Below, piece by piece: positions 55,709 through 59,035 of a stretch of 64,000 nucleotides of DNA. This stretch comes from Caulobacter sp. 73W. GTDB lineage: Bacteria > Pseudomonadota > Alphaproteobacteria > Caulobacterales > Caulobacteraceae. The DNA lies in assembly GCF_041021955.1 (NCBI RefSeq), contig NZ_CP158375.1, positions 3,398,501 to 3,462,500 on the forward strand. Reading direction: 5' to 3'. A model generated the notes under the pieces. The model ran no database searches. It saw only the letters and a list, made by a program, of their open reading frames with translations, and was not told the DNA's origin. Numbering within the stretch: the stretch's first letter is position 1; every line of letters begins with the position of its first letter. Both the position numbers and the translations under genes were made by a program.

Positions 55709-56607
55709 AGCCGGGCTTCGATCCCGTCACCCTGGCGGTGCCGTTCTTCGTCCTGGCCGTGGTGCTGGAGATCATTCTCGGCCGCCTGGGCAAGGGCAAG
55801 GCGGTCTATGAGCCGAAGGACGCCGCCACCTCCCTGCTGATGGGGTTCGGCAGCACCCTGGCCGGGCTTCTGACGGCCGGCGTGATGTTCGGCGCCAGCC
55901 TGTGGGTATATCAGCACCGCCTCTTCACCATCCCGATGACGGCGATCTGGGCCTGGGTGGCGCTCTTCTTCCTGGAAGACCTGACCTACTACTGGTTCCA
56001 CCGCCTGGCGCACGAGCGGCGGTTCTGGTGGGCCAGCCACGTCAACCACCACTCCTCGCAGCACTACAACCTGACCACGGCCCTGCGGCAGACCTGGACC
56101 GGCGGCGTGGCGGGGACCTGGGCCCTGTGGCTGCCGCTGAGCTTCCTCGGCTTCCCGCCGGCCATGGTGGCGATCCAGAAGGGCCTCAGCCTCGTCTACC
56201 AGTTCTGGATCCATACCGAGGTGATCAAGCGCATGCCGCGCTGGTTCGAGGCGGTGTTCAACACGCCCTCGCATCACCGGGTCCACCACGCCCGCAACGC
56301 CCGCTATCTCGACGCCAACTACGCCGGCGTCCTGATCATCTGGGACCGCATGTTCGGCACATTCATCCCCGAGAGCGACGAGGAGCCGCCGCGCTACGGC
56401 CTGGTGCGGAACCTGGGCGGGTTCAACCTGCTGCACGTCGCCTTCCATGAGTGGATCGGCATCGGCAAGGACCTGCTGAAGGCTCGCTCTCCGCGCGAGG
56501 TCGCGGGCTACCTGTTCGGCCCCCCGGGCTGGAGCCCCGACGGCTCCCGCGACACTTCCGCCACCCTGAAGGCCAAGTGGCGGGCGCGGACGGGGCGGGA
56601 CGGCTAG
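55705..56607 (+). CDS. Sterol desaturase / fatty acid hydroxylase superfamily enzyme
   Basis: 300 residues, membrane-bound di-iron enzyme. All three histidine clusters are present: FHRLAHERR, HVNHHSSQHYN and SHHRVHHARN. Four or more hydrophobic helices surround them. Substrate unknown; in bacteria related enzymes hydroxylate hopanoids, carotenoids or lipid acyl chains. It is coupled to the preceding small membrane protein. Its TAG stop shares CTAG with the stop of the convergent phzF-like gene. Confidence 0.92.
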   Translation: MKPGFDPVTLAVPFFVLAVVLEIILGRLGKGKAVYEPKDAATSLLMGFGSTLAGLLTAGVMFGASLWVYQHRLFTIPMTAIWAWVALFFLEDLTYYWFHRLAHERRFWWASHVNHHSSQHYNLTTALRQTWTGGVAGTWALWLPLSFLGFPPAMVAIQKGLSLVYQFWIHTEVIKRMPRWFEAVFNTPSHHRVHHARNARYLDANYAGVLIIWDRMFGTFIPESDEEPPRYGLVRNLGGFNLLHVAFHEWIGIGKDLLKARSPREVAGYLFGPPGWSPDGSRDTSATLKAKWRARTGRDG

Positions 56608-57443
56608 TCCAGCGGCCGCATCAGCCGCGCGGCGCCGGACACGCGGATGCTGGCGCCCTTCTCTGGGGTGATGGCGGCGGTCAAGCGGGACCGGGCGCCC
56701 ATGTCCTCGCCCTGGACGATCTCGATCGACCCGCCGTGCGGCCAGCCCAGGTCGCGCAGATAGCCGGCCAGGGCCGCCGCTGCGGCGCCCGTGGCGGGAT
56801 CCTCATAGACGCCGCCCGCCGCGAACGGATTGCGCGCATGGAACAGGCGCTCGGTCTCTGCGTGGACCAGGCTGATGGTCACCCACTCGTTCGCGCGCAT
56901 CAACGCCTGGCCCGCTGTCAGGTCATAGCGCATGGCCGAGAGGGCGGCGCGGCTGTTTAGCGCGAGCACCAGATGGGACGCGCCGCCGTTGATCCGCGCC
57001 GGCGGCAGGCGGGGATCGAGGTCGTCGGCGCTGTAGCCGAACAGGGCCAGGCCCGCCTCGACCTGTTCCGCGCTGGCCGGGGCGCTGTGAGTCGGCGGCG
57101 ACTGGAGCGCGGCCGTCAGGGCCTCGCCGTCGCGGCGGCCTTCCACCGAGATCGTCGAGTTGTTGAGACGCAGCGTATGGACGCCGTCGCCATGCTTCAG
57201 GGCCAGGACCGCGCCCAGGGCGATGGTGGCGTGGCCGCAGAACGGCACCTCCATCTCCGGCGCGAAATAGCGCGTGCGCCAGCCGTCGCCTTCGCGGGCG
57301 GAGAAGACGGTCTCGGAATACCCGACCTCCGCCGCCACCCGCTGCATCGCCTCGGCGGACGGCAGCGCATCGCACAGGACGACCCCAGCCGGATTGCCTC
57401 CGGCGTCACCATCGGAAAAGGCGGCGACATGGGCGACGTTCAT
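56604..57443 (-). CDS. PhzF family protein
   Basis: 279 residues in the diaminopimelate-epimerase-like fold. The PhzF signature is clear: AFSDGDAGGNPAGVVLCDALP at the start, GYSETVFS with the catalytic Glu, YFAPEMEVPFCGHATIALGA and, later, DPATGAAAAALAGYLRDLG. Members isomerise small acids or have unknown jobs; phenazine genes are absent here, so the phz name reflects family only. Confidence 0.92.
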   Translation of the reverse strand: MNVAHVAAFSDGDAGGNPAGVVLCDALPSAEAMQRVAAEVGYSETVFSAREGDGWRTRYFAPEMEVPFCGHATIALGAVLALKHGDGVHTLRLNNSTISVEGRRDGEALTAALQSPPTHSAPASAEQVEAGLALFGYSADDLDPRLPPARINGGASHLVLALNSRAALSAMRYDLTAGQALMRANEWVTISLVHAETERLFHARNPFAAGGVYEDPATGAAAAALAGYLRDLGWPHGGSIEIVQGEDMGARSRLTAAITPEKGASIRVSGAARLMRPLD

Positions 57444-57541
57444 GGGAGGACTCCAGACTGACAGGGCGCTTCGCCTACCAGTGTTACGGTCCGACTTGAA
57501 GCCAGATGCGGTGACGATTGTCTTAGAGAAGCTGACGGCGG

Positions 57542-57608
57542 CTTCTTCTCCTGCCCCACTTGCGGAGGAGGTGGCGCGGCGCGTCAGCGCCGTGACGGAG
57601 GGGGCGCT
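57542..57608. repeat. 67-bp repeat, family B, left copy
   Basis: Runs from CTTCTTCTCCTGCCCC to GTGACGGAGGGGGCGCT with a central palindrome GGCGCGTCAGCGCC. The right copy (57971-58037) is its inverted partner, differing mainly in the palindrome. Confidence 0.88.
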
Positions 57609-57951
57609 GCGGCAGCTTCGAACATCGACTGCGCGACGCCATCGGGATCGCGCATCACTTCACCTGCTTCGTAACGAAGAACGCGATAGCCGAGGGCCTC
57701 CATGTAGGCGTCGCGCCGTTCATCCTGTTGCGGATGATCACCGGTATTATGAACCCAGCCGTCAACCTCGATAACCAGCTTGGCGGCCTGCAATAGAAGT
57801 CCGCGATGTAGGGGCCGATGGGATGTTGCCGCCGAAATGCGACGCCGACCTGTCGGGCGGCTCTTAAGCGGACCCACAGCCAGACTTCCGGCGGCGACAT
57901 TTCACCCCGAAGCGACTTGGCGCGGCCATGCGTCTTGCTGGTCGATCTCAC
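57584..57951 (-). pseudogene. DUF559 (Vsr-like) endonuclease-domain gene, frameshifted
   Basis: Two frames together give a DUF559 protein: MSPPEVWLWVRLRAARQVGVAFRRQHPIGPYIADFYC in one, then AKLVIEVDGWVHNTGDHPQQDERRDAYMEALGYRVLRYEAGEVM in the other. The break lies near 57793, where one base appears missing between FYC and AAKL. DUF559 is a restriction-endonuclease-like fold related to Vsr. GTG 57951 is a plausible start (VRSTSKTHGRAKSLRGE). The last codons run into the left repeat. The gene is flanked by inverted copies of repeat B. It could be a sequencing error instead of decay. Confidence 0.82.
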
Positions 57952-57970
57952 AGCTTGAGCTTGGCGCAAG

Positions 57971-58037
57971 AGCGCCCCCTCCGTCACGCGGCTGTCGCCG
58001 CGCGCCACCTCCCCCGCAAGCGGGGCAGGAGAAGAAG
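57971..58037. repeat. 67-bp repeat, family B, right copy (inverted)
   Basis: AGCGCCCCCTCCGTCAC to GGGGCAGGAGAAGAAG, the reverse complement of the left copy outside the central palindrome. It lies 11 bases before the stop of the NAD regulator gene. Confidence 0.88.
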
Positions 58038-58048
58038 ATGGAACAGCG

Positions 58049-59035
58049 CTAAAGCAGCGGCAGCGACAGCCCGAACGCCGGGCGCGCGGCCAGGGCTTCT
58101 CGGCGGAAGCGGAACAGTTCGGCGGGGCGGCCGCCGGTCTCCACATCTAGCCGGCCGAGGCCTTCCACCAGATCCGTGCGCTCAACCACGCGGCGGAAGT
58201 TCTGCTTGTGCAGGGCTACGCCGGCGATGGCCTCCACCGTCCGCTGCAGGGCGCTGAGCGTGAACTCCGGCGGCATCAGTTCGAAGACGATGGGGCGGTA
58301 CTTCAGCTTGCCGCGCAGGCGGCCCAGGCCCGTGGCCAGGATGCGGCGGTGGTCGGAAATCATCGGCTCGCCGAAGGCCGGCGACAGGGCGGCGGGTTCG
58401 GCGGCGGGGCGGCCCTGGTCGCGGGCTAGGTCGCGGGCCGCTTCCGGGGCCAGGCCGGCCTCGTAAAGCAGCTCGTAGCGCTCCAGAACCCGTTCCTCGT
58501 TCCACGGCGCGCCGTCGAGGGCGAAATGCAGGCGCGCCCGCGACAGGCGGCTGTCGTCCTGTCCGGCCCAGGCGCGCAGGGCGGGGGCCAAGGCGTCGTC
58601 GATGGCGGCGGGGCGACCCTCGCGCCAGTCTTCCCAAGGGAAAAACCGCGACCACGGCGCCCAGGCGGTGTCGGCCTTGGCGCCCGCGGCGGCGGGGGTG
58701 AGCGCCAGATAGCCCACCGAGACCACGCGCGCCGCGCCGGCGCCGACCTCGGCCCGGGGGGCGTCGCGGCCCTTGTCGCCGAAGGTGTAGAGCTGTTCGA
58801 CATATCCCAACTCGAACCCCGTCTGCTCGGTCACGAAATCGCGCAGGGCCAGTTCGAAGGTGCGATCCGCCTGCGGGTTGAACGGGCCGAAGGGCAGGCC
58901 GGCCAGGGTCGAGGTGCGGTCGGTCACCGCGTCGTGCGGGCGCACGGTCAGGACGACGGCCTCGCCATCGCGGATGGCGACCGTGACGGCCGACAGTCCG
59001 ATGACGACGGAGGGGGCGTCCAGGCCGGTGTTCAT
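58049..59035 (-). CDS. NrtR-like NAD regulator (Nudix-derived transcription factor)
   Basis: 328 residues. The N-terminal half is a Nudix fold without a functional box (AVTVAIRDGEAVVLTVRPHDAV, FELALRDFVTEQTGFELGYVEQLYTFGDKGR), and the C-terminal half is a winged helix: KLKYRPIVFELMPPEFTLSALQRTVEAIAGVALHKQNFRRVVE. This layout is that of NrtR, a repressor of NAD biosynthesis genes that senses ADP-ribose; the alphaproteobacterial form is longer, as here. It is preceded by and coupled to the HD hydrolase (ATGA overlap). Confidence 0.88.
   Translation of the reverse strand: MNTGLDAPSVVIGLSAVTVAIRDGEAVVLTVRPHDAVTDRTSTLAGLPFGPFNPQADRTFELALRDFVTEQTGFELGYVEQLYTFGDKGRDAPRAEVGAGAARVVSVGYLALTPAAAGAKADTAWAPWSRFFPWEDWREGRPAAIDDALAPALRAWAGQDDSRLSRARLHFALDGAPWNEERVLERYELLYEAGLAPEAARDLARDQGRPAAEPAALSPAFGEPMISDHRRILATGLGRLRGKLKYRPIVFELMPPEFTLSALQRTVEAIAGVALHKQNFRRVVERTDLVEGLGRLDVETGGRPAELFRFRREALAARPAFGLSLPLL

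Follow-up and report, generated by a model that had tools for sequence, protein, structure and literature searches.

Inverted double-hairpin repeats enclose a frameshifted DUF559 nuclease gene in Caulobacter sp. 73W: the probable remains of a small mobile element

Results

A broken DUF559 gene lies between inverted arms

The window analysed here, a stretch of 64,000 nucleotides from the genome of Caulobacter sp. 73W, carries at 57542–58037 a unit of about 500 bp (given no strand as a whole) that consists of a DUF559 gene and two inverted arms. The left arm (57542–57608, forward strand) and the right arm (57971–58037, reverse strand) are double-hairpin repeats of 67 nt each in opposite orientation, identical at 60 of 67 positions and separated by 362 nt. 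The right arm is predicted to fold into two hairpins (z −1.95); folding of the left arm is weaker and no better than that of shuffled sequence (z −0.37). The gene is read from the reverse strand and is recognized by the PF04480 profile in two pieces, an N-terminal half at approximately 57787–57927 (profile positions 3–51, 44 bits) and a C-terminal half at approximately 57617–57790 (positions 52–106, 44–46 bits), both above the Pfam cut-off of 20.6 bits. As the halves sit in two frames the gene must be frameshifted, with the break near 57787–57790, and the C-terminal open reading frame (57584–57877) stops within the left arm. The preliminary description of this DNA had reported the framing repeats, the run of the C-terminal codons into the left repeat and the frameshift, and all three observations hold. 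Outside the unit lie genes for a PhzF-like protein (56604–57443, reverse strand, PF02567) and an NrtR-like regulator (58049–59035, reverse strand, PF21906), the unit being placed directly behind the stop codon of the latter. No RNA family in Rfam accounts for the unit, the one match being far under the gathering score (E 0.21). When scored for inverted arms the unit reaches 53, compared with a best score of 15 among 144 mock genes of equal length placed in related loci for the chance estimate.

The arms recur in the same genome as compact gene-less pairs

The DUF559 gene of the window is the only one found in its 4,007,162-base genome. A search of that genome with the arm gave 25 matches at E ≤ 0.001, both window arms included, and beside the window's own pair there are five pairs of matches that face each other closely. 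At the loci read these are compact elements of about 140 bp, made up of an arm, a spacer of about 20 nt and an inverted arm with no gene, so that the window unit has the design of a compact element with a gene in place of the spacer and the genome holds one broken full copy and many short ones. Across the loci of this and other genomes, most arms are built on one plan, with CCCTCTCCC-loop-GGGAGAGGG as outer hairpin and a tail close to GGGTGAGGGG on the inner side; a second hairpin is frequent. Compact pairs also adjoin unrelated genes in the absence of any DUF559 gene, as would be expected of non-autonomous copies.

Identity with the CGTC-tagged REPs was considered and rejected; set against the account of these in the available part of PMC3733652, the arms are without the CGTC tag, the 8–9 bp A-T-starting stem and the CCA tail. 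At one intergenic site of the window's genome (L005) and its orthologues (L189, L193 and L188) different palindromic repeat subfamilies are present.

Gene-sized pairs of inverted arms mostly bracket DUF559

DUF559 genes were found in 114 of 149 genomes of the family, with up to 13 matches per genome, and were absent from 35. Three sets of loci were scored for inverted arms. In the first 30 loci (one per genome, best-scoring taken first) arms scored at least 24 in 18 and at least 18 in 24, displaced controls in the same loci giving 0–22 with one at 72. The second set drew on 18 genomes and comprised 40 regions, each at most 20 kb long (790,539 bases together), picked solely for holding DUF559; these contain 41 DUF559 domains, 36 of which are bracketed by inverted arms. 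When all inverted-repeat pairs with a gap of 250–700 nt in these regions were collected, 38 of 42 proved to bracket DUF559, the 38 representing 36 elements because L068 and L070, where the assembly has N, each give a second pair and count twice. The four gene-sized pairs without DUF559 have scores of 24–26, among the lowest of all, together with one secondary DUF559 pair (26). Of the ten pairs with gaps of 700–2000 nt just two bracket DUF559; some of the remaining eight reach scores of up to 77. The third set was the best 80 of at least 470 named loci, several per genome and some repeating earlier loci; five could not be tested as they lie at contig ends. Among the remaining 75, arms scored at least 16 in 62 and at least 24 in 53, with 13 below 16, as against none of the 144 mock genes of equal length in third-set loci (maximum 15). 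Arms were present at 32 of 36 loci named as Caulobacter, Caulobacteraceae or Caulobacterales and at 30 of the other 39.

Judged from these counts, the pairing of DUF559 with arms is obligate-looking in both directions. The preliminary description had set against its proposal of a mobile cassette the twin prospect of repeats equally frequent beside unrelated genes and no empty sites. What was found is a strong preference of gene-sized pairs for DUF559, though compact pairs adjoin unrelated genes, together with empty sites for the window unit in two genomes, for another DUF559 element in three and for short elements at five places (described below).

The protein is predicted to have a Vsr-like nuclease fold

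An alignment of 17 diverse members shows sixteen invariant residues (R10, E17, W21, Q37, D46, F47, L54, E57, D59, G60, H63, D70, R73, G81, R86 and I103); in a wider set of 45, where the numbering is shifted by one, D60, H64 and D71 are invariant and E58 is conserved in at least 90%. An AlphaFold2 model of the Caulobacter radicis protein (pLDDT 85.7, pTM 0.79) has as its top structure match another DUF559 protein (PDB 3hrl, TM 0.80), followed by the domain of the homing endonuclease I-Bth0305I (TM 0.70). Escherichia coli Vsr comes lower (TM about 0.5, E 0.04), after mitoribosomal proteins and PvuRts1I. A profile search agrees, with 7.5e-38 for 3hrl and 0.0023 for 3r3p (I-Bth0305I). We read the E/D/H/D residues on this model as a putative EDxHD-type site in a Vsr-like fold. 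All 45 proteins match the NCBIfam entry PRK09767.1, the first with 80.5 bits against a cut-off of 218; PADLOC gave weak matches only, and none for the first protein. The median dN/dS over 91 pairs of 14 Caulobacter genes is 0.18 and, by this measure of its codons, the DUF559 coding region is under purifying selection.

Boxes of the form GTTC-N7-GTTC, which are of the LexA type, lie 27–53 nt upstream of 5 of the 41 DUF559 domains of the second set (L092, L062, L067, L078 and L079); the 790,539 bases hold 24 such boxes on both strands, and in the named set the figure is 1 of 79. This suggests an SOS-controlled DUF559 subgroup.

The Caulobacter crescentus DUF559 protein VsrA (CCNA_02930) is induced in the SOS response, and the SOS response of a methylase mutant needs VsrA, according to the available part of PMC12907096; a member of the DUF559 family therefore affects DNA in vivo, as far as that part of the source goes. 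It could be argued from this dependence, from the purifying selection and from the boxes just upstream of 5 of 41 genes that DUF559 proteins are host repair proteins, Vsr-like as proposed for VsrA, whose genes lie in repeat-rich intergenic spots where repeats accumulate around them. We give this explanation only a very small chance, as up to 13 matches occur in one genome yet none in 35 of 149 family genomes, paired inverted arms flank 62 of 75 DUF559 loci but no mock gene, and dispersed copies have exact ends (see below).

Orthologous sites occur with and without the element

The flanks of the window unit are adjacent without it in two related genomes (G193 and G158; 81–91% identical), and comparison with these empty sites places the inserted stretch at about 57530 to 58039. 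A second DUF559 site (L071), also directly behind a stop codon, was followed through more genomes. The full element is present in G116, G091 and G086; in G159 the flanks are separated by 498 nt; in G142, G149 and G177 a single outer hairpin is left; and in G155, G121 and G184 there is no repeat. In five further genomes the left flank alone was matched (in one of these, G101, an arm starts just behind the stop codon), and in G022 the left flank had no match. For the short elements, three relatives were examined at the counterparts of nine sites in the window's genome, which gave 26 places (L019, of ten compact sites, was not in the query). Both flanks are kept without the repeat at five places, namely L010 in G181, L013 in G193 and G181, L016 in G158 and L022 in G193; L010 is without a repeat in G158 and G193 too, but there the right neighbour differs. 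A single hairpin is left at four places, and several hold another repeat family or subfamily. Since both ends carry the outer hairpin, a palindrome in itself, the single-hairpin remnants could be products of excision or slippage. A separate palindromic repeat, TTCGAGACGC...GCGTCTCGAA (L190, L203, L199 and L194), is present at sites where the window's genome has compact elements.

No clear target-site duplication was seen at the empty sites read for the window unit, L071 and the short elements. Two candidate features of the target were considered. A palindromic target had seemed possible from single cases of inversely complementary flanks, but was rejected, as 81 flank pairs (among them many copies in both strands and registers off by one) are no better than mismatched pairs (best-of-9 register, 4.00 versus 4.00). 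For the outer hairpin as a direct target duplication, copies were inspected by eye; the loops on the left and right mostly correspond in inverted orientation, some copies in G116 matching neither way, and we therefore treat the outer hairpin as probably part of the inverted arm. Many DUF559 sites are common to several species, and the elements are therefore likely to be old residents that move infrequently.

Copies with exact ends are dispersed within single genomes

Caulobacter endophyticus (G146) has four DUF559 copies whose alignment is exact between the two outer hairpins; all six pairings of their 400-nt flanks are without a match. Four copies in Caulobacter sp. Root655 (G116) also align exactly between outer hairpins; the left flanks of L069 and L072 are 83–84% similar, so that this pair may have been copied within a larger repeat, and L070 and L072 share a 21-nt match in their right flanks. 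The flanks of L069, L070 and L072 are in part a further dispersed repeat of about 150–200 bp in the genus. The two genomes contain 50 (G146) and 52 (G116) arm matches. At 15 places read in them, one DUF559 element (L233) has lost an internal part and keeps both gene ends, several copies of about 200–240 bp retain both element ends, and several hold another repeat inside. The nested repeat at L236, L238, L242 and L251 in G146, GTCATCCCGG...CCGGGATGAC, is CGTC-REP-like.

Filled and empty alleles at one site, and a fold nearest to that of I-Bth0305I after another DUF559 protein, are what a free-standing homing endonuclease would give, which cuts the empty allele and is copied in at that same site by host repair, with the hairpins as incidental terminators. 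Several similar copies in unrelated flanks within one genome, gene-less short copies with the same ends and arms that co-vary with the nuclease (next section) all argue against it, and we allow homing a small chance. The likeness to homing arrangements suggested in the preliminary description survives for the predicted fold and residues, but the copies lie in unrelated flanks rather than at one homologous site.

Arms and nuclease co-vary

For 36 elements from 16 genomes, arm similarity and protein similarity are correlated between genomes (rho 0.75; Mantel test, 0 of 2000 permutations), a value inflated because some pairs are orthologous sites. The within-genome comparison is free of that effect, and rho for its 39 pairs is 0.91. 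In C. endophyticus four similar nucleases have arms with similarities of 0.91–1.00, and the arms of a fifth, distant nuclease are only 0.22–0.24 similar to these; a like contrast is seen in Caulobacter zeae (G086; 0.68–0.87 versus 0.20–0.25). Different arms for two lineages in one genome are what specific enzyme–end pairing would predict. Over 75 genomes of the genus the median number of arm matches among those listed is 15.5 in the eight with the window's DUF559 lineage (the window's own broken copy included) and 3 in the other 67 (P = 0.002, species not being independent). These counts may be too low, as 12 candidates were scored per genome.

These data bear most directly on the possibility that DUF559 merely rides between arms that are moved by some other trans-acting enzyme, for example a RAYT/TIRYT Y1 transposase. 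Thirteen of the 67 genus genomes without the window's lineage still have strongly matching arms, as such a passenger arrangement would allow, and an inner tail present in many arms, GGGGTGAG, fits the GGGGWSAS of some tyrosine-transposase terminal inverted repeats given in the available part of PMC3733652. According to the same part of that source C. crescentus encodes tyrosine transposases, and a Y1_Tnp match was obtained in Caulobacter vibrioides, which served as control. In eight of eight genus genomes searched, the window's genome and the two examined in most detail among them, there was, however, no Y1_Tnp (PF01797) match; the arms follow the DUF559 lineage even inside one genome; and the gene-sized inverted pairs contain DUF559 (38 of 42) and not assorted genes. 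We therefore regard a passenger role as unlikely. The fit of GGGGTGAG to GGGGWSAS, as far as that motif is described in the available text, may reflect shared origin or convergence.

Arm-bearing DUF559 loci reach beyond the Alphaproteobacteria

In a sample of the class, DUF559 was present in 77 of 240 genomes and arms scored at least 20 at 17 of 30 loci (one of which, L145, has an uninformative control at a contig start), the other 13 lying below 20. In a sample of the phylum, DUF559 was present in 108 of 299 Pseudomonadota genomes, and arms scored at least 18 at 15 of 28 new loci, 9 of 16 of those outside the class, with 13 of the 28 below 18. Among named loci, arms were found in Variovorax, a Spongiibacteraceae MAG, a Planctomycetia MAG and Spirosoma terrae, where they are of similar design and different sequence, and were not found at the loci of both Bordetella MAGs, a Rhizobium isolate and a Bradyrhizobium isolate. 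Arm-bearing loci thus extend outside the Alphaproteobacteria. Seven places were read among 37 plasmid records: long arms occur in Sinorhizobium meliloti (score 106) and short ones in Deinococcus (21), Picosynechococcus gives a weak match (16), and the loci of E. coli, Azospirillum, Sphingomonas and Synechocystis showed no arms (8–11).

On the pSymB plasmids of S. meliloti Ak57 (L444) and 1021 (L451) DUF559 lies between 114-nt arms that are 96% identical. Part of this arm is present without the gene in 25 of 30 plasmid records among the matches listed, at least 139 rhizobial and related records have a match to part of the S. meliloti query, and the one gene-less copy read is a double palindrome. 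These Sinorhizobium repeats may correspond to RIME elements.

Discussion

We interpret the window unit, with a probability of roughly 0.7, as a degenerate copy of a mobile element, some 500 bp long, that consists of one DUF559 nuclease of Vsr/I-Bth0305I (EDxHD-type) fold between inverted double-hairpin arms. The traits on which this rests, all seen by comparison of genomes, are ends at the outer hairpin, presence and absence at orthologous sites, dispersal, gene-less derivatives, single-hairpin remnants and the pairing of arms with nucleases. They are best read as those of a REPtron-like element whose dedicated mobilization protein would be the nuclease, to which we infer the catalytic role. 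The mobile cassette of the preliminary description, with a nuclease that helps to spread the repeats, is upheld as to mobility, with co-variation and exact-ended copies in its favour; the part played by the nuclease itself is the portion that we infer. Its likeness to REP/RAYT arrangements stands for the inverted flanking repeats and for co-evolution, but the gene does not encode an HUH Y1 transposase.

In the mechanism we envisage, the nuclease would recognize the hairpins of its own arms and nick the DNA at the outer hairpin or close to it. A strand, either released or copied, would then enter a new place, often just behind a stop codon, and the insertion would be completed through host replication and repair. 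Short copies would be moved in trans; as the sole full copy in the window's genome is frameshifted, it presumably no longer serves the compact elements there.

A more far-reaching claim, which we put forward tentatively and hold to be slightly short of evenly balanced, is that these units form a new class of transposable element, widespread in the Pseudomonadota and extending at least to the Bacteroidota (Spirosoma) and one Planctomycetia assembly. The sole transposition protein encoded by the element would be a stand-alone Vsr-like nuclease, about 113–130 residues long, that recognizes its double-hairpin ends; gene-less derivatives would account for a large part of the palindromic repeats of CCCTCTCCC...GGGAGAGGG type in these genomes, and the whole would amount to a RAYT/REPIN-like system invented a second time, with an unrelated enzyme. 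Bacterial genomes commonly contain palindromic repeats and, in the available parts of PMC2817692 and PMC3733652, only the RAYT-linked families have a candidate mobilizer. DUF559, a common family of unknown function, seems to supply the enzyme that matches a large family of hairpin repeats, and this type of unit may explain a common family of bacterial repeats. In the literature, most preprints and subscription journals aside, we found no title or abstract that connects palindromic repeats, or mobility as a repeat-bearing element, with DUF559 or Vsr-like genes, and the available part of the RepRanger paper (PMC12306157) mentions neither an endonuclease nor a transposase. The recurrence of the pairing in many bacteria, as a unit present in some genomes and absent from others, suggests an unrecognized kind of mobile DNA. 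If confirmed, it would add a further enzyme fold to the nucleases of transposition, give DUF559 a role and provide a testable prediction for each arm–nuclease pair.

Several known systems share some of these features. VsrA of C. crescentus is a DUF559 protein of the same genus that is SOS-induced and affects DNA in vivo; it is described as a predicted mismatch-repair protein, and the available part of that text (PMC12907096) contains no word in palindrom-. Unlike a Vsr mismatch-repair gene, the window gene adjoins PhzF-like and NrtR-like genes and not one for a cytosine methyltransferase, although linkage of Vsr to a methyltransferase is, by the available part of the same source, not strictly required. 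I-Bth0305I, an EDxHD/Vsr-like homing endonuclease (PDB 3r3p), has a related fold and catalytic-type residues, but the DUF559 units have spread to unrelated sites and are bounded by matched hairpin arms in inverted orientation. With MITEs and their parent insertion sequences the units have in common terminal inverted repeats, a one-gene copy, short copies with the same ends and empty sites; they differ in that the unit encodes no transposase of the DDE, serine, tyrosine or HUH kind, that a target duplication is not visible, and that single-hairpin remnants occur. The CGTC-tagged REPs of the Alphaproteobacteria are also palindromic intergenic repeats that form inverted pairs and have no known mobilizing enzyme, being without a dedicated transposase in the available part of Di Nocera et al. 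(PMC3733652), but their sequence and stem rules are different.

The closest parallel is the REPtron, together with its REPINs or BIMEs. RAYTs are defined by inverted flanking REPs, by co-evolution with these and by a correlation with REP abundance (Nunvar et al., PMC2817692, available part), and DUF559 units resemble REPtrons, as described in the parts seen of PMC2817692 and PMC3733652, in having a nuclease gene between inverted palindromic repeats, co-evolution of gene and repeat and many gene-less pairs. The further REPtron trait given there, repeats that are more numerous where the gene is present, may hold in part for them. They differ in that the enzyme is a DUF559/Vsr-like nuclease and not an HUH Y1 enzyme, and in that the arms are about 65 nt long, usually have two hairpins and are not of the CGTC type. 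As the enzyme is unrelated and Y1 was absent from all eight genus genomes searched, the DUF559 unit is not a member of the REPtrons but would be REPtron-like in its working.
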